DNA of 64,000 nt, taken from Streptomyces griseus. GTDB lineage: Bacteria; Actinomycetota; Actinomycetes; Nanopelagicales; Nanopelagicaceae. The notes below the pieces were generated by a model. It was not told the DNA's origin, did no database searches, and saw only the letters and a list, made by a program, of their open reading frames with translations. Positions within the stretch are counted from its first letter, which is position 1; every line of letters begins with the position of its first letter. This document shows, one piece after another, positions 4,212 through 22,231 of the stretch. The position numbers and the translations under genes are program-made. The stretch lies in assembly GCA_945884695.1 (NCBI GenBank), contig CAMCYO010000002.1, positions 115,669 through 179,668 of the forward strand, given 5' to 3'.

Positions 4212-5498
4212 CTAAGAAACTTGGTGCCTCAATTTCCATGAATCCCCTAACTTTTGCCAAAGATGGGGGCTACGGAAGTCATCGGCTAGCGAGAGAAATA
4301 ACTCCTTGGTCATTACAGGATTTGTGAATTGAGACAAGACTTTAGATCCGAGCCTTTCGTCGATGGAAAGATATCTCATCAAATCCTCTTCGAATCTAGC
4401 GGGCCACTCTCCATCAAATCTTTTTACAAGGGCAACCCCTTCTTCCCTCGAGATTTCATTACTTCTAATCTCCTGCGCAGCATCGTATGTTGCTCTTCCT
4501 AGACCAAACTTTATAAATGTTGTCCAATAATGAAGATCGTCAATTTTGTCATCAATCGAGTTGTATTTGCTATATGTTCCTGGAGTTCTTTCTGGACTGG
4601 GTTTAAACCCTCCATGCTCAACCGCGTAGTAGTAGGCAGACTGAGGATGCCACTTTAGGTAGTAGCCGAGGTAATGAACGGAAATTTTTGCTTTCTTCAA
4701 TTTATCCACTTCGGCCGGCAAATATTGCTGAAGTTCGTAACGCTCAATTCCATAACGCTCAACTAATTCTGAAATTGGCACACCACTTAAAAGTGTGTTT
4801 TTATCCGATTCGGAACTAAAGTACTGTGTATCACGAATGGATGAATTCGAATCAGCTATCGGATTCCCGTACTCAGCTTCATTCTCCCCATAAAAAATAA
4901 GTGGGATCTCATGCAAGATTGCCAATTTTGGTGCCATACCTTTTTGTCCCAACATGAAAGGTTGAAAAGGATGAAATAAATTTTCGACAGCAAGCCTTGT
5001 TAAGAGACGGTGGACTTGACCGTTTGGCGTCGTAAGAAGGTTGTCGAAACCTGAGTGAATCCAAGACTGAAAATTTTCCCAGCCCCATTTTGTATATTCG
5101 TGTGGTGCCCATGTGACGGTAAGCGGTCGAAATCCGTACTTATACTTGAGAATGTGTGATTGAAAGAAACTATCCTTTCCGCCTGAACCGGGAACAATGC
5201 AATTATATTTTCCTGGAAAGCCCTTGTATTTAGATGCCAGCTCATAAAGTTCAGATTCACGCTGTGACCAATCGATTTCATTCGATTTTCTAATTGCGAA
5301 TTGGCATGCATCACAAATGCCATTTTCATCAAAAGCTATGGTTTTCTTGACAGACTCTTTTGAGTGTTCAAATTCAACTGCGCTATTTGGTCGCTGATTT
5401 GAAATTACACATATTTTACAAAAAACTACTTTCTCTGGAAGCCCATACAGTGTTTGTGGGCCTAACCCGCCAGGTATGGATTCAGAACCACTCATCAT
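4212..5498 (-). CDS. N-acetyl sugar amidotransferase (WbpG/PseA/PtmG-like)
   Basis: CKIC..CDAC cysteine pairs; PP-loop PGSGGKDS; followed the hisH/hisF pair in the same transcript direction. Confidence 0.85.
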   Translation of the reverse strand: MMSGSESIPGGLGPQTLYGLPEKVVFCKICVISNQRPNSAVEFEHSKESVKKTIAFDENGICDACQFAIRKSNEIDWSQRESELYELASKYKGFPGKYNCIVPGSGGKDSFFQSHILKYKYGFRPLTVTWAPHEYTKWGWENFQSWIHSGFDNLLTTPNGQVHRLLTRLAVENLFHPFQPFMLGQKGMAPKLAILHEIPLIFYGENEAEYGNPIADSNSSIRDTQYFSSESDKNTLLSGVPISELVERYGIERYELQQYLPAEVDKLKKAKISVHYLGYYLKWHPQSAYYYAVEHGGFKPSPERTPGTYSKYNSIDDKIDDLHYWTTFIKFGLGRATYDAAQEIRSNEISREEGVALVKRFDGEWPARFEEDLMRYLSIDERLGSKVLSQFTNPVMTKELFLSLADDFRSPHLWQKLGDSWKLRHQVS

Positions 5499-5500
5499 AC

Positions 5501-6115
5501 TTAAACTATATCAGTTGACAATATTTCAGAAAGAAATTTGAGTCCAGTTTCACCGCTTCGCTCTGGATGAAATTGAACACCTAAGACATTATCCACTTTA
5601 TATACTGCCAGGATTCTTTCTAATCCATGAGCGGATTCGGCTAGGTGGCTATCCGCTTTCTCAACTTCCATTCGGTACCCGTGTGAAAAATAAAAGTAAC
5701 TGTCCTCCAATGATAAAGACTTTTTAGTTCTTTCATTGAATTTGACTTTTGCCCAGCCCTGATGCGGGACTGCACATTTATTTCGATCAAGTTTCTTAAC
5801 CAAACCAGGTATAAATGAAAGACCTTCGACACCCTCACTCTCCTCGCTAGATTCAAGAAACATTTGCGCACCTAAGCACAAGCCAATAAGTGGATTTCCA
5901 CTTTCAAAATGCTTCTGAATTGAGTTCCTCTGCCCCGATTCGCTTATGTTTTGCATCCCCAGGCCAAATGCGGCAACACCGGGGACAAGAACAACATCTG
6001 ACTTATTGATTTTTGTGCCATCGAGATCTACTTCAAAATCGATCTTTAAGTGGCTGAGCGCTGATATCACACTGAAAATATTTCCAACCCCGTAGTCCAC
6101 TACCGCAACCCTCAT
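5501..6115 (-). CDS. hisH: HisH-type glutamine amidotransferase (glycan-locus paralog)
   Basis: DYGVGNIFSV, GLCLGAQMF nucleophile Cys, FHPERSGETG. Confidence 0.88.
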   Translation of the reverse strand: MRVAVVDYGVGNIFSVISALSHLKIDFEVDLDGTKINKSDVVLVPGVAAFGLGMQNISESGQRNSIQKHFESGNPLIGLCLGAQMFLESSEESEGVEGLSFIPGLVKKLDRNKCAVPHQGWAKVKFNERTKKSLSLEDSYFYFSHGYRMEVEKADSHLAESAHGLERILAVYKVDNVLGVQFHPERSGETGLKFLSEILSTDIV

Positions 6116-6864
6116 CGACGAACTTCTATTCCAACTGAATTCAAGTAAGTCTTGATTTGGCTGATGGTGTATTTTTCAAAATGTAACATTGAGGCAAGTG
6201 CAACGCCGTTTGCTCCAGCCTTTTGGGCTAATAAAATATCTTCTGGTGTTCCTGCTCCACCATGGGCGATTATCGGTACTTGAGTTACTGAACGTACAGC
6301 TTCTATTAGCGCAAGATCAAACCCCAACATGGTTCCTTCTTGGTCAATTGAAGTTAAGATTATTTCTCCAACACCTAGATCAACTGTTTCTTGAACCCAA
6401 TGTAGAACATCTTTTCCTGAATGTTCTCTTCCGCAATCAGTCATTGCGGTCCAGTTTGAACCATTTGTTCTCTTCGCTTCAATTCCAAGAATGACTGCTT
6501 GACAACCTAGGGCATTTCCAATTTGAGCTATTAATGCAGGATTATGGATTGCTGCTGTATTTATTGAAATCTTGTCTGCTCCAGCACGGATAAGCGAAAC
6601 AGCATCTTCAGCAGTTCGAATGCCACCACCAACGCTTAGGGGTATGAATACATGATTGGCTGTTTTTGAAACCAACTCTTGAATTGAATTTCTTCCATAA
6701 AGCGATGCGACGATATCTTGATAACTTATCTCATCAGCGCCCTCAGAATAGTACTTATCCGCGAAACTAGAAGGGTCGCCTAATTTTCGCAAACCCTCCA
6801 AGTGGATACCTTTGACCAAATTGGGGGGTTTCACATCCAAGCGAGCAATAACTCGAAAAACCAT
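6112..6864 (-). CDS. hisF: HisF-type cyclase subunit (glycan-locus paralog)
   Basis: ARLDVKPPNLVKGI, GGGIRTAEDA, EIILTSIDQEGTMLGFD; DIVASLYGR variant; 4-nt overlap with hisH. Confidence 0.88.
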   Translation of the reverse strand: MVFRVIARLDVKPPNLVKGIHLEGLRKLGDPSSFADKYYSEGADEISYQDIVASLYGRNSIQELVSKTANHVFIPLSVGGGIRTAEDAVSLIRAGADKISINTAAIHNPALIAQIGNALGCQAVILGIEAKRTNGSNWTAMTDCGREHSGKDVLHWVQETVDLGVGEIILTSIDQEGTMLGFDLALIEAVRSVTQVPIIAHGGAGTPEDILLAQKAGANGVALASMLHFEKYTISQIKTYLNSVGIEVRR

Positions 6865-7056
6865 TTAAGAAATCGACGCTTTCAAGCTAGAAAACTGACA
6901 TGGAACCCAAGAAGTGAATGTAAGTGAGCCTGGATACCTCATTAGCTTTCCATCCTTCTCGAGAGTCCTAGATTCAATGAACTAGTACCTTAGACTATCT
7001 CTCTATACGAGCCACAGTGAAGCTTATGGCAATAGAAATGGAAGTCCATTCTCCTC

Positions 7057-8067
7057 ATGTCGGTAGACCTAACATCCAAGAAATCAAAGATCCTATTACG
7101 TGGTTTTGGATCAATCGGTAGGCAGTATGCAAACACTTTGGCCGAACTTGGATGCACTGAGATTGATGTGGTTTCTAATTATCCCATTGACCGGGATAGT
7201 TTGCCTGAATTTAAGTTTGTAACTCTTGTAAATAAAAGCAAAATACTTAGAGTGGATTACGATCTGGTGATAATTGCTTCGGAAACAAAATCGCACTTAA
7301 AGGATTTTGAAGACCTTCGACGCCTTGGAAAAAATGTTTTAATTGAGAAACCCATAGCATCCAACTTAGAAGACGTGAAGAACTATACGCGAACATTGAA
7401 TTCCAAGAAGGTTTTTGTTTCTAGCCCACTTCGCTTTTACTTGAATTTTGAAAAGCTACCAGAAATGATTAATTCACTTGGGGAATTGTACTTAATTGAG
7501 GTTGAATGTAAATCTTGGATGCCGGACTGGCGTCCGACTAGAGATTATCAAGATGGGTATTGGGCTGACCCTGGCCAGGGTGGAGTCTTGCGAGACTTAA
7601 TTCATGAAATAGATTACCCACTCGCTCTTTTCGGTTTGCCCAATGCAGTAAATTGCAAACTGGAATTTGGTACCGAAAGTGAGCCATTTCCGGTAGATAC
7701 GAAAGCAGATTTAAATTGGATTACTTCAACAGGAGCAGATGTCAGAATTCATCTTGATTATTTCTCAAAGAAATCTTCTCGCGCTATGACCGTGAATGGA
7801 GAAAAAGGAGAAATTCATTGGGATCTGCTCAATGGAAAACTAGAAGTTAAAGACAATTCTGGAAAAGTTCGTTTTTCGAATTCTGAAAAGACTCTGCCAT
7901 CGGATGCGCTGTATAGGCAAGTAAGTTCCGTACTGTTAGAAAGTGAAAAATTTTATCCATCAAGCGTCCAGGAGGCAATCAACGCTCTAGCCATTGTAGA
8001 TGCTGGAAGAAAAGCTGACTTGAATCAACAAGAATCAGTAGTGACATATATAGACTTATCGCATTGA
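7057..8067 (+). CDS. Gfo/Idh/MocA oxidoreductase, PtmF-like by context
   Basis: LLRGFGSIGRQYANTL, VLIEKPIASNLEDV; directly upstream of legF and ptmA-like genes. Confidence 0.75.
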   Translation: MSVDLTSKKSKILLRGFGSIGRQYANTLAELGCTEIDVVSNYPIDRDSLPEFKFVTLVNKSKILRVDYDLVIIASETKSHLKDFEDLRRLGKNVLIEKPIASNLEDVKNYTRTLNSKKVFVSSPLRFYLNFEKLPEMINSLGELYLIEVECKSWMPDWRPTRDYQDGYWADPGQGGVLRDLIHEIDYPLALFGLPNAVNCKLEFGTESEPFPVDTKADLNWITSTGADVRIHLDYFSKKSSRAMTVNGEKGEIHWDLLNGKLEVKDNSGKVRFSNSEKTLPSDALYRQVSSVLLESEKFYPSSVQEAINALAIVDAGRKADLNQQESVVTYIDLSH

Positions 8068-8082: not shown

Positions 8083-8814
8083 ATGGAGTTCGCTTTGAAG
8101 GAAGTCGTTGGGCTCATTCCGGCGCGTGGGGGCTCAAAAGGGATTCCTCGGAAGAATCTCAAAGTTGTTGCTGGCTTGCCTCTAATAGCCCACACTATTC
8201 GATTTGCCTTATCTTGCCCACAATTTACGAAGATTTTAGTTTCCACTGACGATCCTGAAATTGCAAAAGTTGCTCAGGATTTTGGCGCAGATGTGCCGTT
8301 CATTCGACCGGCAGAGATTAGTGGCGATCAATCCCCCATGGTCGACGTTGTGAGTCACGCAGTTAAAGAAATCGATAATTTAAATACGAACGAATCTTGT
8401 GTAGTCCTTCTAGACCCTACGAGTCCAGTAAGGACCCAAGAAACACTTAAGGTTGCATTAGGTTTATTGGATGCCAAGCCAGGTATTGATGGAGTGATAT
8501 CAATTTCTAGACCCTATTTTAATCCATTGTGGGTAGGAGTTGGCAAAGATTCGCAAGGAATCCTAAGTCCTTTGAATCTAATAAATGAAAAATTCACCCG
8601 TAGGCAAGATGTTCCAGAGTATTGGCGTATTAACGGCAATTTCTATCTCTGGAGATTTAGCGTTGCACGAGAATTGAAGAAGGATTACCTTGCAATCGGT
8701 AAGTACGCCTCTGTTGAAACTCCAGAATTTAGCTCATTATCTATAGACTCAGAGGAAGAAATTAATCTTTTAGAAGCACTGTTAGTAGCCAAAATTGTTC
8801 GAATGGAGTATTAA
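8083..8814 (+). CDS. legF: CMP-legionaminic / CMP-nonulosonic acid cytidylyltransferase
   Basis: LIPARGGSKGIPRKNL; LLDPTSPVRT; neighbours are the leg genes. Confidence 0.85.
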   Translation: MEFALKEVVGLIPARGGSKGIPRKNLKVVAGLPLIAHTIRFALSCPQFTKILVSTDDPEIAKVAQDFGADVPFIRPAEISGDQSPMVDVVSHAVKEIDNLNTNESCVVLLDPTSPVRTQETLKVALGLLDAKPGIDGVISISRPYFNPLWVGVGKDSQGILSPLNLINEKFTRRQDVPEYWRINGNFYLWRFSVARELKKDYLAIGKYASVETPEFSSLSIDSEEEINLLEALLVAKIVRMEY

Positions 8815-8816
8815 GA

Positions 8817-9617
8817 ATGAATTTAGAATCGGCTAAATCCTTCAAGAACAAAACGGTTCTCATAACCGGTGCTACGGGTCCGCTGGGGGTAGCCTTTTCC
8901 GGAATGTTTGCTTCAATGGGAGCGAAATTAATCTTGACAGATATAGATATCAAAAAAGGTGAAGCGCTAGTTTCGAAAATCAACAAAGATAGTGAAACAA
9001 CTGCAAAATTTGTAGAAATGAATTTAGAGAAAGAAGAGGAACGATCGAAGGGCTGTAAGTTAATTACTGAAAGCGTTGAGAGTCTTGACGTTCTCATTAA
9101 TAATGCCGCGCTAACGGGAGATTCCGAAGTAGAAGATTATGTTGCGCTTTTTTCTGACCAAAGTGATCTCTCATTTGCGAGGGCCTTAACCGTTAATCTA
9201 CTGGCTCCTTTTTCAATAGTCCGAAATCTACTTCCACTTTTGGAAAAATCATCCACAGCAAGCATTATCAATATCGCATCTATTTATGGCCTTGTTGGGT
9301 CAGTTCCAACACTTTATGGGAAATCGGGATTACGAACTCCTGCCGCTTATGCCGCATCAAAAGGTGGCCTTATTCAATTAACTCGCTACTTAGCAACCTC
9401 ATTGGCCCCCAAGATTCGAGTTAATGCAATCGCCCCTGGAGGAATTGAACGCAATCAAGACGCTGAATTTATTGAAGCGTATGCAAATAGAACACCACTT
9501 GGGAGAATGGCGACAGAGCAAGATATTTGTGGGTCGGTGCGTTGGTTGGCAAGTTCAGAATCTAGCTATGTCACGGGACAAGTTATAGCAGTTGATGGGG
9601 GCTGGACGGCTTGGTAA
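8817..9617 (+). CDS. SDR oxidoreductase, PtmA-like
   Basis: ITGATGPLG, INNAALTG, YAASKGG; legF-ptmA arrangement. Confidence 0.75.
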   Translation: MNLESAKSFKNKTVLITGATGPLGVAFSGMFASMGAKLILTDIDIKKGEALVSKINKDSETTAKFVEMNLEKEEERSKGCKLITESVESLDVLINNAALTGDSEVEDYVALFSDQSDLSFARALTVNLLAPFSIVRNLLPLLEKSSTASIINIASIYGLVGSVPTLYGKSGLRTPAAYAASKGGLIQLTRYLATSLAPKIRVNAIAPGGIERNQDAEFIEAYANRTPLGRMATEQDICGSVRWLASSESSYVTGQVIAVDGGWTAW

Positions 9618-9618
9618 T

Positions 9619-10668
9619 TTAGCTACCTATTTTGTTAGCGTTGAGAAAATCATCAGGCCTACCAACATCTATCCAATGCTCATGAATCGGATAGGCCAAA
9701 ACTCTTTGCCCCGTTTGTTGAATTCGCTCAAAAAATATAGGCATGTCACATGGTTGCGCTTTGGCTAATAAGCCGAGGGTAGAAGGATCAATAATATATA
9801 CGCCAGCATTAATATGTGAACGGGTTATAGGTTTTTCTTCATACCCAATTATTTCAAGCCCATCGATTTGGACTACCCCAAAAGGGTTTTGCCATTCGTG
9901 CAATCGAACCGCCATTGTTGCTTTTGCTTCGTTTTGGTGATGGAAATCCAGTAGTTCTCCGTAGTTAATGTCTGTCAGTACATCACCATTAGTCACGATA
10001 AAAGGAGTGCTCGGAGGTGCTGGAAATAGACTTAACGCACCAGCCGTTCCAAGTGGTGCATCTTCGCGAAGGTATTGGATTTCAACTCCCAATTTCGTTC
10101 CATCACCAAAGTGGTCTTCAATCATTGAGCCCAAATGATAAATTGCCAAAACAAATCGGGTAAATCCTTGGCTCTTAGCTCGGTCGATTATGTGCTCTAA
10201 AATGGGTTTTCCTGCCACCTGCAGTAATGGCTTGGGACAATTCTCAGTCTGTGGCATTAAACGGGCTCCCCTACCCCCGCACATAATTACTATCATATTT
10301 TCGCGATTAGGAAATACGTTAATTTCATCCCATAGGTGTAATCCAATTACTCGCTGACTTTGATCAACTATTGGGATTTGCTGAATCTTGTTTGCAGCCA
10401 TTATCTGTAACACCATAGCTCGTCCCATTTGTGGAGGAACAACGAATGGTTCGCGGCGCAGAATTGTAGAAATAGGAGTTGCTAAATCTAAGCCTCTCAA
10501 TAACCCTCTTCGGATATCTCCATCAGAGATTGTGCCCTCTAATACACCGGACTTATTTGTGACAATTACGATTTTGACCGAAACCTCATTTAGATTCTCG
10601 ATTGCTTGGCTTATTGTTGCATCAATAGGAAGTATCGCTCGCTTCCAAGAATCTTTTGATTCACTCAT
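9619..10668 (-). CDS. ptmE: CBS-domain nucleotidyltransferase (PtmE-like glucosamine-1-P guanylyltransferase)
   Basis: Tandem CBS N-terminus followed by MCGGRGARLMPQTENCPKPLLQVAGKPI nucleotidyltransferase signature. Confidence 0.8.
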   Translation of the reverse strand: MSESKDSWKRAILPIDATISQAIENLNEVSVKIVIVTNKSGVLEGTISDGDIRRGLLRGLDLATPISTILRREPFVVPPQMGRAMVLQIMAANKIQQIPIVDQSQRVIGLHLWDEINVFPNRENMIVIMCGGRGARLMPQTENCPKPLLQVAGKPILEHIIDRAKSQGFTRFVLAIYHLGSMIEDHFGDGTKLGVEIQYLREDAPLGTAGALSLFPAPPSTPFIVTNGDVLTDINYGELLDFHHQNEAKATMAVRLHEWQNPFGVVQIDGLEIIGYEEKPITRSHINAGVYIIDPSTLGLLAKAQPCDMPIFFERIQQTGQRVLAYPIHEHWIDVGRPDDFLNANKIGS

Positions 10669-10695: not shown

Positions 10696-11850
10696 TTATA
10701 AGTCATAAAATGCCTTCTTGGTGATTCCTTGCAGAGGGGTCTCTTTAAGAATTCTGACAATCTCTCTACTTGCTCCACCTTCTCCGTAAGGGTTAATCGT
10801 CTCTAAGAGTGTCTCTTGAAAGTTTGATGAATAGAGCTTTTCTAAAGCCTCATTAATTGCTAGTCGATTGGGCTCACAATTAATAACACTGCTTGCTAGT
10901 TCTCTTCCAGTTTGGCGGTCACCAATGTTAATTGTTCCCTTTTTGAACGAAGGCACCTCGGTAAGTCCACTAGATGAATTACCAACTACGCCGTCGACTT
11001 GAGCCACGCATGATAAGTATCTTAGTTGACCAAGGGATTCAAATAAATAAGCGTTGGAATTGGCGTTGACGAATCCTTCTATCAGTCTAAGAATTGAATG
11101 ACCCCCAGTATCTGCATTAGGGGCTGTGAAAATAAGAGTTGTGCTCGTCAAATCTTTAAGCGCCAACAGGAGTTGTTCCATTTGCAACTCAGCTTTCGTT
11201 TCATCAAGCGTGGCAGGATGAAAGGTGATGAGCAAACTCCTTGGACCAAATTCTAAATTCAGCGATCTTTCAAGTTCTTTTCGAGCGAGAAGTTTAACTT
11301 GTTTTATCGCATCAACTCCCAACCCCCCAACGAGAAACACTTTTTTGGGATCTTCACCAAGTTGTAAAACACGATTTCTGTAACTTTTAGTCGCTACAAA
11401 ATGCAAATGTGACATCTTGGTGATTGAGTGCCTCATTGCGTCATCGAATGCTCCAATAGTCACTTCGCCACCATGAATATGGGCGACTGGAATTTTTGCT
11501 ACCAAAGCAGCGGCAACTGCAGAAAATATTTCGAATCGATCTCCCAAAACGAGCACCAAATCAGGATTCAATTCATTTAGTGCTTTTGCAAAACTAATCA
11601 ATCCTTGACCCATTGATTCGGCAATTGAATAACCATCGTCGACATTACTTAATATGTCTACTTTATAGTCAATTTTGAAACCGTCAGATTCAATTTCTTT
11701 AAAAGTGTGGCCAAATGTTGGTGATAGATGCATCCCCGTTGCGATGATCTGAAGCGTTAAGACCGGGTCATTTTTTATGCCCTGCATAACAAAATGAAGC
11801 AAGCCATAATCGGCTCGACTACCTGTGATTACGCAGATTTTTAGAGTCAT
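10696..11850 (-). CDS. legG: NDP-sugar hydrolysing 2-epimerase (LegG/NeuC family)
   Basis: ITGSRADYGLL; HIHGGEVTIGAFDDAMRHSITKMSHLHF; VGNSSSGLTEVPSF. Confidence 0.9.
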   Translation of the reverse strand: MTLKICVITGSRADYGLLHFVMQGIKNDPVLTLQIIATGMHLSPTFGHTFKEIESDGFKIDYKVDILSNVDDGYSIAESMGQGLISFAKALNELNPDLVLVLGDRFEIFSAVAAALVAKIPVAHIHGGEVTIGAFDDAMRHSITKMSHLHFVATKSYRNRVLQLGEDPKKVFLVGGLGVDAIKQVKLLARKELERSLNLEFGPRSLLITFHPATLDETKAELQMEQLLLALKDLTSTTLIFTAPNADTGGHSILRLIEGFVNANSNAYLFESLGQLRYLSCVAQVDGVVGNSSSGLTEVPSFKKGTINIGDRQTGRELASSVINCEPNRLAINEALEKLYSSNFQETLLETINPYGEGGASREIVRILKETPLQGITKKAFYDL

Positions 11851-12848
11851 AATTCAATGAATTCATCAGTGGAATAATCACGCTTTGCTGCCTTACCGAT
11901 TACTTCGTCCCACTGCATTGCCGAGATGCCGTTGTTTGGCCGTTTAGCGGTGATATTTTCAGAACTAAAAATTTCGCCTTTTGAAATACTTTGGCGGGCC
12001 ACGATCGATTTGCGTGCAATCACTATATTTTCAACCTCACTTGGCATTAAACGTTTAACGCCATCTCCAAGGGCTTGTTCAATATTGCGAATGGCGTTGA
12101 CCATAGCTTTCAATTCTGTGGGCTCGAGACTTGCTTTATGGTCGGGACCAGGCATGTTCCGATCAAGAGTGAAGTGTTTCTCGATCACTGTTGCACCTAG
12201 TGCCACAGCAGCAATAGGAATCTCAATACCCAACGTGTGGTCTGAATAACCTATTTCCACGTTGAGCGCACTTTTGATGCTTTGCATTGCGCTCAAATTT
12301 ACATCTGACATCGGAGCTGGATAAGCAGTCGTGCAATGCAGGACGGTGACCTTGCTGCGCGGAGTTCCAGAGTTTTCCAGCACACTGATTGCAGATTCAA
12401 TTTCATCCATTGTTGACATACCAGTTGAAAGAATTACACGTTTTCCCAAGCCGCCGATATGCCTTAAAAAGGACATGTTTGTGATTTCACCTGATGGAAT
12501 CTTAAATAACTCCTGACCGAGCCGATTTAACAAATCCACACTTTCAATATCGAATCCAGTAGATAAGAATCCAACGGCGCGTGACTGGCAGTAAGCAATA
12601 AGCTGAACATGCATCTCTTCTGTTAGCTCTAATTTTTGAAGCATTGCATGTTGTGACTCAGCTTTTCCCGTTTCTGATTTTTGGTATTCAGCCTTATGCG
12701 CAAAATGAGTTGCAAGCCGGTCGGCATTGAACGTTTGGAACTTTACTAAGTCGGCACCTGATTCAGCAGCTATATCTACTAATTTCTTTGCCAAACTGAT
12801 ATCACCATTATGATTGACTCCAGCTTCAGCAATAATTAGGGTTTTCAT
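11847..12848 (-). CDS. legI: N,N'-diacetyllegionaminate synthase (NeuB/LegI family)
   Basis: IAEAGVNHNGDISLAKKL; GYSDHTLGIE; EKHFTLDRNMPGPDHKASLEP; C-terminal SAF-like region. Confidence 0.92.
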   Translation of the reverse strand: MKTLIIAEAGVNHNGDISLAKKLVDIAAESGADLVKFQTFNADRLATHFAHKAEYQKSETGKAESQHAMLQKLELTEEMHVQLIAYCQSRAVGFLSTGFDIESVDLLNRLGQELFKIPSGEITNMSFLRHIGGLGKRVILSTGMSTMDEIESAISVLENSGTPRSKVTVLHCTTAYPAPMSDVNLSAMQSIKSALNVEIGYSDHTLGIEIPIAAVALGATVIEKHFTLDRNMPGPDHKASLEPTELKAMVNAIRNIEQALGDGVKRLMPSEVENIVIARKSIVARQSISKGEIFSSENITAKRPNNGISAMQWDEVIGKAAKRDYSTDEFIEL

Positions 12849-12856
12849 GAAGTAAC

Positions 12857-13474
12857 TTAACCTAGGAACTTGGAATCGTCAGGTAAATTGTGACGCAGGG
12901 TTAATCCCATTCCCACCACTGCATTTTTACCAATTGAAATATCTTCTTTGATTAGACTCCCACTCCCAATAAAACTTCCAGCTCCTACTTTAGAATTCCC
13001 ATTGACAATAACTCCTGTAGAGATATGACAGTTATCTAATACTTTTGCATCATGTTCAATTACTGCACGCGTATTGATAATGCAATTACTCGCAATAGTT
13101 GCATTCGCGTTAACAATAGCTCCGTGCATAACTATTGTTCCTGCGCCAATTGTCGCGCTAGGAGAGATGTATGCCCTCGGTGAAATAATTGTCGGCAATT
13201 TAAATCCAATTTCTACAGCCCTCTCATAAAGACGAATGCGATTTTTAGGCGAATTGATTTGCCCAAGACTTACAATCGCGAATTGACACTGACTAAGCAG
13301 ATTAGGCAAGTCGTCGTCTGAGGCAAGTACTTGATATTTGCCTCGGCTCGTCCCGACTTCGTCAGGGAGTCCAACTAACCCTGCAATATTAAATTTTCCT
13401 TCCTGCTCGATCACGTCAATGCATGCTTGCGCGTGACCGCCGGCGCCTAGAAGAATCAAGTTTGGTTTCTTCAT
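12857..13474 (-). CDS. legH: NeuD/PglD/LegH-type sugar O/N-acyltransferase
   Basis: LLGAGGHAQACIDVI; left-handed beta-helix hexapeptides; internal Met start gives a 4-nt overlap with legC. Confidence 0.82.
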   Translation of the reverse strand: MKKPNLILLGAGGHAQACIDVIEQEGKFNIAGLVGLPDEVGTSRGKYQVLASDDDLPNLLSQCQFAIVSLGQINSPKNRIRLYERAVEIGFKLPTIISPRAYISPSATIGAGTIVMHGAIVNANATIASNCIINTRAVIEHDAKVLDNCHISTGVIVNGNSKVGAGSFIGSGSLIKEDISIGKNAVVGMGLTLRHNLPDDSKFLG

Positions 13475-14658
13475 TGCGAACCACTCAAAACTAGCTCTGG
13501 ACTGCTCGGAATGTTTATTAATCGTGTTGCCAGCGATTGCGCCGTTGGCAAATCCATGTTCGGGCAATCCTTAAAAGGTGTTAATTCATTTAATAGCACC
13601 CACGAAGGACGAGTCATATAGTTGGCGGCATTCGTCTCCTCAAGAATTAAGTCTCTTTGATCAGACTGGTTTTCGTCCAATAATATAGTTTGCAACCAGT
13701 AGTTGCTTTTACTATTGGTAGGTTCTTCAAAAAGAGCTACCTTGGATATTTTGGAAAACGATTGCTTGTAGCGACTAAATAGTTCTCTTTTAGCTGCAAG
13801 TTTTTTAGGTAGTTGTTCTAACTGGGCACACCCTAATGCAGCATTGATATTAGGCATGCGGTAGTTATAACCAACTTCGTCATGGCGAAACTCCCATGGG
13901 TGAGGCAATTTTGCGGTTGTCGTTAAGTGCTTAGCGCGACGTGCAAGATTTTCATCGTTAGTAAGGATTGCACCCCCTCCTCCTGTAGTGATTGTTTTAT
14001 TTCCATTGAAACTTAGGGCACCTAATAAGCCAAATGTGCCTGTGTGTTTCCCCTTGTAATAACTCCCGAGCGACTCGGCTGCATCCTCAACCATGACTAT
14101 ATTGAAATCTTGTGCAATCGACATTAGGCCCTCTAAATCTGAAGGGTGGCCGAAAGTATGCATTGGAACAAGTGCCCGAATCACCCGTCCAGTGTTTTTA
14201 TTGAAGCATTGACCCGAGCGCTGTTCAGATATTGAATTTAGATAATCTCGCAGTTTTTTTCCGTCAATCCCTAGCGTACTTTCTTCGCTGTCAATAAAAT
14301 GCGGAATTGCATCGCAGTACGTCACGGCATTAGCAGTTGCAACGAAAGTAAGAGCAGGGATCAAAACCTCATCGTTGGCTTGTACTCCAGCCAACTTGAG
14401 AGCAATGTGTAGTGCTGCCGTTCCATTAATCACCGAAATGGCAAATTTCGCTCCTGTGAAATTGGCTAAATCGATTTCAAAACGATCTACATATTTTCCT
14501 ACAGATGACACGTAAGTTGAATCAAGACACTCTTTTAAGTAGAGCCACTCATTGCCATTGAAGCTGGGTTCGTGTAAGACCGCCGGAGCCGGACCAATTG
14601 CTGCTCTGATCCCTTCAATAATGTCTTGGGCAAGAGTGGAAGTATTTGTCTTCATCAC
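13471..14658 (-). CDS. legC: LegC family aminotransferase
   Basis: LHEPSFNGNEWLYLKECLDSTYVSSVGKYVDRFE; VEDAAESLGSYYKG; SFNGNKTITTGGGGAI PLP-Lys motif. Confidence 0.9.
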   Translation of the reverse strand: MMKTNTSTLAQDIIEGIRAAIGPAPAVLHEPSFNGNEWLYLKECLDSTYVSSVGKYVDRFEIDLANFTGAKFAISVINGTAALHIALKLAGVQANDEVLIPALTFVATANAVTYCDAIPHFIDSEESTLGIDGKKLRDYLNSISEQRSGQCFNKNTGRVIRALVPMHTFGHPSDLEGLMSIAQDFNIVMVEDAAESLGSYYKGKHTGTFGLLGALSFNGNKTITTGGGGAILTNDENLARRAKHLTTTAKLPHPWEFRHDEVGYNYRMPNINAALGCAQLEQLPKKLAAKRELFSRYKQSFSKISKVALFEEPTNSKSNYWLQTILLDENQSDQRDLILEETNAANYMTRPSWVLLNELTPFKDCPNMDLPTAQSLATRLINIPSSPELVLSGSQ

Positions 14659-15653
14659 AAGTTGTAAATCCCTGACTTATATCCACTTAGGTTTTCAGGT
14701 TGGCTAAACCATGCAATTGTCTCCTCTAAACCGCTCTTGAGGCCATCGCGCCCAGCAAATCTTGGTTTCCAGTTAAGAATTTCTTTTGCTTTGGAATTAT
14801 CTGCCCATAAGCGCTCAACCTCTGAGTTTGCTGGCCTTAGACGGTCTCCATCTTGAGCAATGCTAATTGTCACACCCATGATTTCGGCAATCAATTCGGC
14901 GGTTTCCTTTATTGAAATCTCAAAGTTACTGCCTAAGTTAATTACTTCGCCTAAACCATTCTTACTATTCAATGTCGCAACGAAACCATCAACAGTGTCT
15001 TTTACGTAATTAAAATCTCGAGTAGGCGAAATAGCACCTAATTTAATTTCTTTTTGCCCGTTTGCAATTTGAGTAATGATGGTTGGAATCACCGCCCTGG
15101 CCGACTGACGAGGTCCGTAAGTGTTGAAAGGTCGCAAAATTACTACGGGTAGATCAAATGATGAATAGAAAGAAAATGCTAATTGGTCGGCTGCAATTTT
15201 GGTTGCTGAATAAGGTGACTGTCCTTGAAGTGGATGATCTTCAGTGATTGGAACAAATTGCGCAGTGCCATAAACTTCGCTAGTTGAAGTATGAATGACC
15301 CTTTTTACTCCAAGCTCCCTGGCCGCCTGTAAGACATTGAGAGTTCCTTTTATATTGGTCTCGACGTAAGTGTCGGGTGAGTGATATGAAAATGGAATTG
15401 CAATGAGTGCAGCGAGGTGGATGACCACCTCGCAACCCTTCATGGCTTCTCTAACGCCATGTGGGTCTCTAATGTCGCCAGAGAATACTTCGAATTTCCC
15501 TTTCACCTCCGGGGAACAGCGATCTAACCAACCCCAAGAGTTAAATGAGTTGTAATAAACAAAGGCGCGAACGCTATGGCCTTGCCGTACTAATTCTTCA
15601 GTTAGATGCGAGCCAATAAAACCATCAGCACCGGTTATTAGGATAGACGCCAT
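14655..15653 (-). CDS. legB: NAD-dependent 4,6-dehydratase LegB
   Basis: ITGADGFIGSHL; SPYSATKIAADQL; RPFNTYGPRQSARAVIPT; 4-nt overlap with legC; AAAGGAG Shine-Dalgarno. Confidence 0.88.
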   Translation of the reverse strand: MASILITGADGFIGSHLTEELVRQGHSVRAFVYYNSFNSWGWLDRCSPEVKGKFEVFSGDIRDPHGVREAMKGCEVVIHLAALIAIPFSYHSPDTYVETNIKGTLNVLQAARELGVKRVIHTSTSEVYGTAQFVPITEDHPLQGQSPYSATKIAADQLAFSFYSSFDLPVVILRPFNTYGPRQSARAVIPTIITQIANGQKEIKLGAISPTRDFNYVKDTVDGFVATLNSKNGLGEVINLGSNFEISIKETAELIAEIMGVTISIAQDGDRLRPANSEVERLWADNSKAKEILNWKPRFAGRDGLKSGLEETIAWFSQPENLSGYKSGIYNL

Positions 15654-17368: not shown

Positions 17369-18232
17369 TTACTTGCGATCCCATATCTGGTTCTCAGTTA
17401 GATTGATATTTCCAATTTTGAACCTACGATTGAATCCAAGCCCAGATAGCACGCTGGTGACCGCCCGATCTTGCCCTGGATGCAATGTGTCGACTTCTAT
17501 GAGAATGGAATTAACTTTCCTGAGTGCATTCTTAGCACCTTTTAAAACTAGGAGTTCAAGTCCATCAACGTCAATTTTTACGTATTTTGCTTCATCTAAT
17601 TGGAAAAGCGAAATCAAGCTATCAATCGTTATTGAGAGTTGAGAACTTTCTATTGGCGCATTGAGAGGCTGGCCATCTTGACCGATATTTTTGCCCATTG
17701 AATTATGCGCACCACCCCAAGTGAAACCTTGCTGTGACATAAACATTGTTTGAACAGCGGCCGCATCAGATAAAGCTAACGGTATTACCGTCACCAATTT
17801 TGATACACGATTATTAACAATGTTACGAAGTAATATATCAAGGTTTAGAAGTGATGGTTCAATCGCATAAACTTTACAATTTCGAGCCAGCGCAGCATAA
17901 ATTGAGAATATTCCAACATTTGCTCCAACATCCATAAGAACAGATCCCTCAGGGAACTCCTCAATCCATAGGAGTGTTTCAGGTTCTTTTGAGGCGAAAG
18001 TTACGGCGCGATACTTCGTAAGCGCTGTCGGAGTTACGAAATTGAGGTTGACTCCTTTATGAAGGAGGGATGTGCTTTTACTCCAAATATGTTTTAGGAC
18101 TATATCCTGTATCAGCTGTCCCCGAAATGTTCTTGAAAAGAATAGAATTATGAAGACGATTATTTTCGAAGTTATCCCGATATAAATTCTGAGCAGTAAA
18201 GTAAGAAACCGCTTGATTGGATACTCATTCAT
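17369..18232 (-). CDS. FkbM family methyltransferase
   Basis: LMDVGANVGIFSIYAA SAM motif; VKIDVDGLELLVLKGAKNAL; TAACCT-N7-ATG upstream. Confidence 0.85.
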   Translation of the reverse strand: MNEYPIKRFLTLLLRIYIGITSKIIVFIILFFSRTFRGQLIQDIVLKHIWSKSTSLLHKGVNLNFVTPTALTKYRAVTFASKEPETLLWIEEFPEGSVLMDVGANVGIFSIYAALARNCKVYAIEPSLLNLDILLRNIVNNRVSKLVTVIPLALSDAAAVQTMFMSQQGFTWGGAHNSMGKNIGQDGQPLNAPIESSQLSITIDSLISLFQLDEAKYVKIDVDGLELLVLKGAKNALRKVNSILIEVDTLHPGQDRAVTSVLSGLGFNRRFKIGNINLTENQIWDRK

Positions 18233-18461
18233 ACTATGCAGGTTACAACACCATTCGGGCGAAACAGTTCAATTACCTCACCTCTCGATGCCCTCGAATC
18301 ATTGCGACGGTTTCTCCAGAACGGCAACCTATATGCAATCTCTCAATTTGCGTCGAAACCACTATTTTCCTAGTCATGCCCATCTAAAGAAATGCAATCT
18401 CCTTGGATTGCACCAAATTGATTCTCCATTAAAGATGCCAACACGTAAATATGGTATCTTG

Positions 18462-20045
18462 GTGTGCGTAGTTCCTTCAAATATGAGGAAATCTATCGCA
18501 GAGAATTTTTACGAGATGAAGATGAGGCGGATCAATCTAACTTTGGACATTGGAGATACTTACTCGCATTTAATTGATATATCTAAAACTTATAAGTCGA
18601 AAGATATTTCAGCTAATACGTTCTTAAAAATTGGCAAACCTAGTCCGGAAAATTTAGAACCCTACAGATTCTATTCTGGCAGGCATAAAATGTTAAAGTT
18701 AATGGTCAAGATTGTTGTGTATTTTCCAACAATTACTATTTGTATTCTTCGCGAAATTGTGCGAATTCTAATCTATAGAGACCATCATCACCTGGACAAG
18801 GATAGTTCCGACAAAACAACAGACACAATTTTTGTATCCCATTTTACACACTTTGTGGATGCGCAAACACGGGATCAATACTTCGGGGAATTGCCATGGA
18901 GAATTAGCTCAAGATTCAAAAATGCCACGATTCTTTTATTGAATCACACAAGAAAGAAAACTAGCCAAGTAAAAGGTGCATTCAGTTCGACCGCAAATGT
19001 TAGCTATGAAGTCAATTCCAAAACGATTCCACTCAGAAAGTTATTGAAGGAAGCATATATGCAGTGGCGGATGAGTTTGGAATTTTTGGTAGATGCCGTA
19101 TTTAAAAGTGAGATTTGTCTTGATTATAGATTGTTATTAGTTGGTGCAGGGCTTGGGCAGTTTTCACGTGCTACATTTGCCGCAATTATTTTTAAAACAA
19201 ACTTAGAAAGTTTTATTAGGGTTTCCAACCCTAGGCAAGTAGTAATGACCTTAGAAGGACATTCTTATGAAATTTTGGCGGTCAAGATGATTCACACGAA
19301 ATTTCCAAACGTAAAGGTAGTTTTTTTTCAACACGCCCCCGTGGTTAAAGGTCAAGTGAGTTTGCGTGAAAATCTTTTCGAAGTTTCTCAAAACGATCTA
19401 ATCTTAACTACAGGCGAAGCTCCCCGGCAGTACTTTTTAAAGTTGAATCCCGTACTTCGAAATCAGATTAAAATTTTGGGATCACCAAAGAATTTTTCTG
19501 GGAATTTGCCAACAACTTTAACAAATTTTAGAAAAGGCGAGCAATTGAATTGTTTGTTCGCTCCCGAGAGCAGTCAAGTAGCAGTAGCCGAGATTTTCTC
19601 ACTTGCAGTTAGTTGTAGCAATGCATTACCCGAAGTGATAATAAATTTTAGATTGCACCCTGCCTACATAGGTGACAAGGCGATGGCAGATACATCACGA
19701 TTGAAGTATCCAGAAAATATGTTGTTCTCAAAACAAACATTAACAGAGGACTTAAAGGTTGCGGATTTCTGTGTATATCGTAGTTCGGCCGTGGCAATTG
19801 AAGGTTTGATTTATGGGTGCAGGCCCCTACATATTGGATCTACAATTAGCGATAATCTTGATCCTCTAGCAATTACATCCCTTGTTCATGAGAAATTTAG
19901 TGAATCTTCGACCTTAATGGAATATCTTCGTAAAGCTGCGAGTGGAAAATCTAGTGAATTGAATCCGGAAGTTTCAAGTATGAGAATGACGTATGCAGAA
20001 TATTTTGCGCCACTTAATGAAGAGACCATCCTCAGCTTAGAATAG
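18462..20045 (+). CDS. Putative surface-carbohydrate biosynthesis / glycosyltransferase-like protein
   Basis: VVFFQHAPVVKGQ and DFCVYRSSAVAIEGLIYGCRPLHIG resemble GT-B-like capsule/O-antigen proteins. The track ORF begins at 18213, but TATGGT-N6-GTG supports a start at 18462. Confidence 0.55.
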   Translation: MCVVPSNMRKSIAENFYEMKMRRINLTLDIGDTYSHLIDISKTYKSKDISANTFLKIGKPSPENLEPYRFYSGRHKMLKLMVKIVVYFPTITICILREIVRILIYRDHHHLDKDSSDKTTDTIFVSHFTHFVDAQTRDQYFGELPWRISSRFKNATILLLNHTRKKTSQVKGAFSSTANVSYEVNSKTIPLRKLLKEAYMQWRMSLEFLVDAVFKSEICLDYRLLLVGAGLGQFSRATFAAIIFKTNLESFIRVSNPRQVVMTLEGHSYEILAVKMIHTKFPNVKVVFFQHAPVVKGQVSLRENLFEVSQNDLILTTGEAPRQYFLKLNPVLRNQIKILGSPKNFSGNLPTTLTNFRKGEQLNCLFAPESSQVAVAEIFSLAVSCSNALPEVIINFRLHPAYIGDKAMADTSRLKYPENMLFSKQTLTEDLKVADFCVYRSSAVAIEGLIYGCRPLHIGSTISDNLDPLAITSLVHEKFSESSTLMEYLRKAASGKSSELNPEVSSMRMTYAEYFAPLNEETILSLE

Positions 20046-21247: not shown

Positions 21248-22231
21248 ATGGCGTCGTTAGCAGGTCAAACCATATTAATCACCGGAGGCACGGGATCATT
21301 CGGCAAAGCTTTCGTTGAAAGACTTTCTAATGAAACGGGCATAAAAGAGATTATTGTCTACAGCCGTGATGAATTGAAGCAATATGAAATGCAGGCGAGC
21401 CTAAGTACAAAATCCGTACGTTTCATTCTTGGAGATGTTAGAGATTATAAGAGGCTCCTGCAAGCCACAACTGGTGTGGATGTGGTGATTCATGCAGCTG
21501 CGATGAAGCAAATCCCGGCAGCTGAAAACAATCCAATGGAGGCGATAAAAACGAATATTCTTGGTGCTGAGAATATTGTAAATTCTGCAATTGAAAACGG
21601 GGTTTCTAAAGTCATCGCCCTAAGTACAGACAAGGCAGCAAATCCTGCAAATCTTTATGGTGCCACAAAACTTTGCTCCGATAAACTAATGATAGCTGGC
21701 AACATTTTGTCCCCAAGGTCAAAAACAATCTTTTCGGTAGTTAGATACGGGAATGTCTTAGGTTCAAGGGGCAGCGTTATACCGTTTTTTATTGAGCAAG
21801 CAAAACTTGGAGTAATACCGATTACCGATGAGAGAATGTCGCGATTTTGGCTAACGATAGAAGAAGGCGTTGAATTTGTAATTAGGAGTCTTGACATAAT
21901 GAAGGGTGGAGAAATATTTGTCCCAAAAATTCCTAGTTTTAAAGTTATAGATGTCGCAAGTGTGGTAGCGCCTGGCGTACCAATCAAAATTATTGGCATT
22001 CGCCCAGGAGAGAAGTTGCACGAAATTATGATTACTGAAGATGATTCTTTTTATACAATGGAATTTGAAGATTTTTATGCGATTCTCTCACCTGAACTAT
22101 TGAATAATCGTTCCTATAAGACTGAAGGAAAAATGGTTCATGAGGGATTTAGATTCAGCAGTGATAGTAATCCAAATTGGCACACAACTAAGTCATTCTT
22201 GTCAGTATTAAAAGCAAATCGAATTCTATAA
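21248..22231 (+). CDS. pseB: UDP-N-acetylglucosamine 4,6-dehydratase, PseB-like
   Basis: ILITGGTGSFGKAF; IVYSRDELKQYEM; IHAAAMKQIPAAE; LSTDKAANPANLYGATKLCSDKL; FVPKIPSFKV; IGIRPGEKLHEIMI. Confidence 0.85.
   Translation: MASLAGQTILITGGTGSFGKAFVERLSNETGIKEIIVYSRDELKQYEMQASLSTKSVRFILGDVRDYKRLLQATTGVDVVIHAAAMKQIPAAENNPMEAIKTNILGAENIVNSAIENGVSKVIALSTDKAANPANLYGATKLCSDKLMIAGNILSPRSKTIFSVVRYGNVLGSRGSVIPFFIEQAKLGVIPITDERMSRFWLTIEEGVEFVIRSLDIMKGGEIFVPKIPSFKVIDVASVVAPGVPIKIIGIRPGEKLHEIMITEDDSFYTMEFEDFYAILSPELLNNRSYKTEGKMVHEGFRFSSDSNPNWHTTKSFLSVLKANRIL

Follow-up and report, generated by a model that had tools for sequence, protein, structure and literature searches.

A trio of genes in the window (the whole stretch of 64,000 nucleotides analysed here) encodes a PP-loop N-acetyl sugar amidotransferase (NASAT), a HisH-type glutaminase and a HisF-type barrel next to a full set of legionaminic acid genes. 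We infer, with a probability of about 0.8, that the trio would act as an ATP-dependent amidotransferase converting an N-acetyl group, most likely that at C5, of (CMP-)legionaminic acid into an acetamidino group to give (CMP-)Leg5Am7Ac, the sugar coming from the adjacent GDP route and being put on a surface glycan other than LPS or flagellin. This kind of system is already known from Legionella and Campylobacter; what is new is the host, in which lpxC and flagellin are not detected, and the existence of a separate, unnamed lineage of trio HisFs.

Organization of the trio

The trio and the region that separates it from its neighbors comprise:

4212..5498, minus strand: NASAT (PtmG/ORF28/LpNASAT-like), 428 aa (TIGR03573, 8WEX, motifs)
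5501..6115, minus strand: HisH-type glutaminase, 204 aa (TIGR01855, Cys-His-Glu triad)
6112..6864, minus strand: HisF-type barrel of the NASAT-trio lineage, 250 aa (gate residues, Asp130 to Glu, tree)
6865..7056, no strand: 192-bp intergenic region separating the trio from ptmF-legF-ptmA, where promoters probably lie (gene layout)

The open reading frames were found intact at exactly these coordinates, so that the close packing of a PP-loop sugar amidotransferase gene with HisH and HisF paralogs, as given in the preliminary description, holds. They are transcribed in the order HisF-HisH-NASAT, with a 4-bp overlap between HisF and HisH and a 2-bp spacing between HisH and NASAT, and the three genes are linked in loci of many phyla. 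All three proteins match their families far above chance level. The trio is divergent from ptmF-legF-ptmA, beyond which the remaining leg genes lie, and thus does not share a transcription unit with the leg genes, a layout that we count against the main reading. A clear foreign origin of the trio was rejected on base composition: its G+C content (0.415–0.418; 0.45 in the housekeeping part) is not set apart from that of the surrounding glycan genes (0.38–0.44). A conserved linkage of the trio to the two Gfo/Idh genes directly downstream was also rejected, the matches being weak and scattered only.

A full legionaminic acid pathway adjoins the trio

The genes on the other side of the intergenic region are as follows:

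7057..8067, plus strand: PtmF-like Gfo/Idh oxidoreductase (Campylobacter hits, synteny)
8083..8814, plus strand: PtmB/LegF-like CMP-sugar synthetase (TIGR03584, 135 bits, below cut-off; synteny)
8817..9617, plus strand: PtmA-like short-chain dehydrogenase (homology, synteny)
9619..10668, minus strand: PtmE-like CBS and nucleotidyltransferase protein, GDP-GlcN step (214–241 bits to Campylobacter ptmE loci)
10696..11850, minus strand: LegG/NeuC-type hydrolysing 2-epimerase (TIGR03568, 465 bits, cut-off 236)
11847..12848, minus strand: LegI/NeuB-type synthase (TIGR03569, 504 bits, cut-off 400; PseI model, 290 bits, cut-off 340)
12857..13567, minus strand: LegH/NeuD-type acetyltransferase (TIGR03570, 183 bits, cut-off 161); listed from a TTG, the true start may be further in
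13471..14658, minus strand: LegC aminotransferase (TIGR04181, 542 bits, cut-off 420)
14655..15653, minus strand: LegB 4,6-dehydratase (TIGR04180, 531 bits, cut-off 475)

Altogether, these genes make up a full GDP-route set for CMP-legionaminic acid (LegB, LegC, LegH, LegG, LegI and LegF with PtmA, PtmE and PtmF), in which LegB, LegC, LegG, LegI and LegH score over curated cut-offs and PtmA, PtmB, PtmE and PtmF are assigned from homology and Campylobacter synteny only. The same component set forms the GDP-GlcNAc route to CMP-Leg in Plesiomonas shigelloides (PMC4481668). The PtmF-like protein is only weakly similar to its best Campylobacter hits (30–37% identity); these hits lie in the order neuC-ptmE-ptmF-ptmB-ptmA in all 10 loci inspected, and the window retains ptmF-ptmB-ptmA, as in Campylobacter genomes. 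The NeuB of the window is the single one in the genome and is of the legionaminic/neuraminic type, so that no pseudaminic acid acceptor is expected. Note that a PseB-type UDP-GlcNAc inverting 4,6-dehydratase is encoded at 21248–22231 on the plus strand (471 bits, cut-off 408), and that no second NeuB/PseI was found in the genome.

The NASAT belongs to the lineage of the Legionella enzyme

The window NASAT scores 349.4 bits against TIGR03573 (WbuX; cut-off 203.2), which places it in this family by model score, and its motifs are intact (PP-loop SGGKDS at residue 105, CKIC at 27 and CDAC at 62). Its only close solved relative is the Legionella pneumophila enzyme LpNASAT (PDB code: 8WEX), with a match of 653 bits over residues 15–427, and it is 64–65% identical to Legionella orthologues. 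The LpNASAT structure displays a zinc tetracysteine site, the PP-loop and an insert at residues 55–69 that is absent from other NASATs (PMC10607449). This insert, located between the CxxC pairs, is present in the window NASAT and in 91 members of the LpNASAT lineage, and was found in one sequence outside it. In a tree of 122 NASATs, the window protein groups with those of Legionella, Planctomycetota, Geobacteraceae and others.

Among loci with full flanks, a legionaminic-type NeuB lies nearby in 40 of the 53 LpNASAT-lineage loci versus 1 of the 20 loci with other NASATs (Fisher p = 3e-8, to be taken as a guide only since the loci are related and not independent). The other 13 lineage loci, where a strong legionaminic-type NeuB is not seen within some 10 kb, count against the main reading. 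Some NeuB occurs in 7 of the 20 other-NASAT loci, mostly as weaker matches that are probably PseI. The linkage count has a sole exception, L186, where a full set of legionaminic genes accompanies a NASAT that does not belong to the Legionella lineage and matches the window protein at 167 bits. Besides, a sister group of NASATs carries SGGKDG instead of SGGKDS in the PP-loop and lacks the insert; it comprises five loci, four of which contain a legionaminic-type NeuB, the exception (L109) being a short stretch:

L075:3560-4777, SGGKDG
L177:9416-10600, SGGKDG
L178:9441-10601, SGGKDG
L180:9404-10627, SGGKDG
L109:2270-3448, SGGKDG

Leg5Am7Ac is the best candidate product because of the linkage between the NASAT lineage and NeuB, the adjoining CMP-legionaminic acid genes and the legionaminic type of the sole NeuB. 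The preliminary description had predicted a Leg5Am7Ac-like sugar from the placement beside the leg genes, and the Legionella-type NASAT and the surrounding full legionaminic pathway argue for the same product. Given a complete legionaminic pathway and a trio close to that of Legionella, the same amidine-tagged sugar is probably made. We assign the acetamidino group to position 5 because of the chemistry of Legionella and Campylobacter, as none of the NASAT structures found has a bound substrate.

Two other substrates or products have to be considered, both of which we regard as unlikely. The trio might amidate a different N-acetyl sugar belonging to this surface-glycan cluster, its adjacency to the leg genes being incidental: members of the NASAT family also act on other sugars (WbpG on a ManNAc3NAc-type uronate, WbuX on FucNAc), and the cluster contains further sugar genes, namely that of the PseB-type dehydratase and the two downstream Gfo/Idh genes. 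The window NASAT, however, lies in the LpNASAT lineage, whereas the WbuX/PseA-type NASATs fall outside it, lack the insert and are rarely found beside a legionaminic NeuB; furthermore, the window HisF lies in the trio lineage and scores under the WbuZ cut-off (see below). Alternatively, the trio might amidate legionaminic acid at the C7 N-acetyl group, or its product might be further changed, for example by N-methylation as in the Leg5AmNMe7Ac made by Campylobacter (PMC3766260). Two loci, L029 and L072, each contain two different NASATs within one leg locus, which suggests that certain species may carry the amidine at more than a single site. Yet the closest studied lineage is that of Legionella, whose product is the 5-acetamidino-7-acetamido form, and a dedicated N-methyltransferase was not seen adjoining the trio.

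The trio HisFs form a separate lineage

The closest model to the window HisF is that of histidine HisF (TIGR00735), against which it scores 265.2 bits (E 5e-79), below the cut-off of 294.55; it also stays below the cut-offs of the models for acetamidino-type HisFs (TIGR03572 (WbuZ), 241.3 of 299.7; NF038364, 179.4 of 310). In a tree of 51 HisF sequences, besides which a larger one was built, the trio HisFs and the window copy make up one side of a branch with a support of 100/99, while the HisF of the genome's own his operon lies within the canonical group (98/91) and the WbuZ-type HisFs form a third group (99/95). The comparison with histidine copies that had been called for earlier thus places the window HisF with the trio HisFs, and its identification as a histidine HisF was rejected: a grouping with canonical HisFs is not compatible with the data (p-AU 0.0003, a rejection that covers HisF only; the HisH tree has long branches), and a separate his operon is present on another contig (C4), where two adjacent full HisF/HisA-family genes (hisF/hisA) have a HisH beside them. 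Hence the hisH and hisF genes of the window, described from the outset as dedicated paralogs, are not the only copies in the genome. The window HisH scores 176.4 bits against TIGR01855 (cut-off 105.4) and has an intact Cys-His-Glu triad, which identifies it as a glutaminase.

The trio HisFs retain Arg5, Glu46, Lys99 and Glu167 (Thermotoga maritima numbering), which we take to be the ammonia gate of HisF, in nearly all of 75 sequences, and the window HisF has all four. The stretch singled out initially as divergent is real and diagnostic: VASLY (residues 53–57 of T. maritima HisF) is found in 74–75 of the 75 trio HisFs and is not usual elsewhere. Position 9 is Arg in place of Cys. The catalytic residues of histidine HisF are Asp11 and Asp130 (PMC5919458). 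In the trio HisFs, Asp11 is kept and position 130 is occupied by Glu (61 sequences), Gln (11) or Asp (3); the window HisF accordingly has only the first of the two catalytic aspartates, with Asp130 replaced by Glu, as is Asp176 of the phosphate site. The WbuZ-type HisFs display the opposite pattern: they retain Asp130 and have another residue, mostly Leu, in place of Asp11. These opposite losses, with the gate kept, point to two separate departures from the cyclase, and both types of HisF may, judging from these residues, have become pure conduits.

On balance, we favor the view that the legionaminic-lineage trio HisFs are a third HisF family beside histidine HisF and WbuZ/HisF2, which would have abandoned cyclase activity (Asp130 to Glu/Gln) and whose sole role would be that of an ammonia conduit docking onto the NASAT, the WbuZ type having converged on this role via the loss of Asp11. 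This family would be found across many phyla, among them actinobacteria in which LPS genes are not detected, and its members would be masked by automatic annotation as histidine HisF. The lineage has no NCBIfam name. Note that L012:11258-12028 and other trio HisFs pass the TIGR00735 cut-off (302.4 of 294.55) despite the Glu at position 130, so that automatic annotation would label them as histidine enzymes.

It is very improbable that hisH and hisF are moved or duplicated histidine biosynthesis genes and that the PP-loop gene alone serves sugar modification: the HisH does score over the histidine HisH cut-off and the top-scoring model of the HisF is, though below cut-off, the histidine one, but the genome has its separate his operon, the AU test opposes the grouping, the HisF carries the changes at positions 130 and 9, and the trio is linked across many phyla.

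Proposed mechanism and comparison with known systems

In the proposed mechanism, HisH would free ammonia from glutamine and the HisF barrel would conduct it through the gate to NASAT, which would use ATP to activate the carbonyl of the N-acetyl group (releasing AMP and PPi) and add the ammonia to yield the amidine; the acceptor would be supplied by the adjacent GDP-route legionaminic pathway. The HisF would have been retained as a conduit and, one of the aspartates that catalyze the histidine reaction being altered, has probably lost the ability to make imidazole glycerol phosphate. It resembles imidazole glycerol phosphate synthase, together with HisH, in fold, glutaminase triad and ammonia gate, but differs from it by the substitutions of Asp130 and Asp176 and by its separate clade.

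In L. pneumophila, ORF28 (a ptmG homologue) to ORF22 form an operon, ORF28 is proposed to convert CMP-Leg5Ac7Ac into CMP-Leg5Am7Ac, and Leg5Am7Ac is a main residue of the O-antigen (PMC3766260). The L. norrlandica locus (L018) has the order NASAT-HisF-HisH-NeuA-NeuB-NeuC-NeuD-LegC, which matches ORF28–22 of that report; from gene order and family, ORF28 is presumably LpNASAT. The window shares with ORF28–22 the NASAT lineage, the insert and the position of the trio beside neuA/neuB/neuC/neuD genes. Unlike the Legionella operon, its trio has the order HisF-HisH-NASAT and is divergent from ptmF-legF-ptmA, it contains a GDP-route ptm set like that of Campylobacter and Plesiomonas (no match to PtmA, PtmE or PtmF was found in the ~20-kb Legionella locus), and it comes from an actinobacterium in which lpxC is not detected. 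Campylobacter jejuni PtmG (Cj1324) is proposed to catalyze the same reaction (PMC3766260), a likeness of reaction and not of PtmG sequence; in contrast to Campylobacter, where the sugar is on flagellin, the window genome has no flagellin gene match. The window shares the combination of a PP-loop NASAT and paralogues of HisH and HisF with WbpG-HisH2-HisF2 of Pseudomonas aeruginosa O5 and WbuX-WbuY-WbuZ of Escherichia coli O145, but the acceptors of these systems are different, NASATs outside the LpNASAT lineage mostly lack the insert, and the WbuZ-like HisFs have lost the other aspartate.

Host, carrier and distribution

The host is an actinobacterium with a small genome (1.48 Mb in 31 contigs), as marked by four WhiB genes, for which Corynebacterium alone among 14 controls gave matches. 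Neither LpxC nor Flagellin_N has a match in the genome; the known carriers of Leg5Am7Ac, LPS and flagellin, thus seem to be absent, and the predicted sugar would have to sit on another structure. Two large proteins without a Pfam match, at 320–1948 on the minus strand (77 bits to a PFTS polysaccharide biosynthesis model, weak and below cut-off) and at 18213–20045 on the plus strand, are candidates for the transferase that would use it. About 2–8 kb upstream of the first base of the window (L127:12116-17305) lie GmhA-, GmhB- and HddA-like heptose-type sugar genes and, in this genome without an LpxC match, a KdsB-type cytidylyltransferase gene over one subfamily cut-off, perhaps for a second CMP-activated sugar.

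The lineage NASAT occurs in 3 of 298 genomes of the same family, including that of the window, and in none of 20 other genomes of the same genus. The other two are 56% identical to the window protein, and in one of these genomes a trio lies beside a run of CMP-synthetase-, NeuB- and NeuC-like genes. In a second genome of the phylum, the trio is found at 63% identity, and no leg gene was seen over the 19.9 kb that were read. This patchy distribution among relatives suggests repeated horizontal gain of the trio.

The NASAT insert and, in HisF, VASLY, Arg9 and Glu130 are sequence marks by which such systems can be recognized and the annotation of HisFs mended. The surface sugar predicted here is unusual and charge-changing; it is known from the Legionella O-antigen and Campylobacter flagella, and would occur in an actinobacterium that seemingly has neither structure, which turns the nature of its carrier into a testable question.
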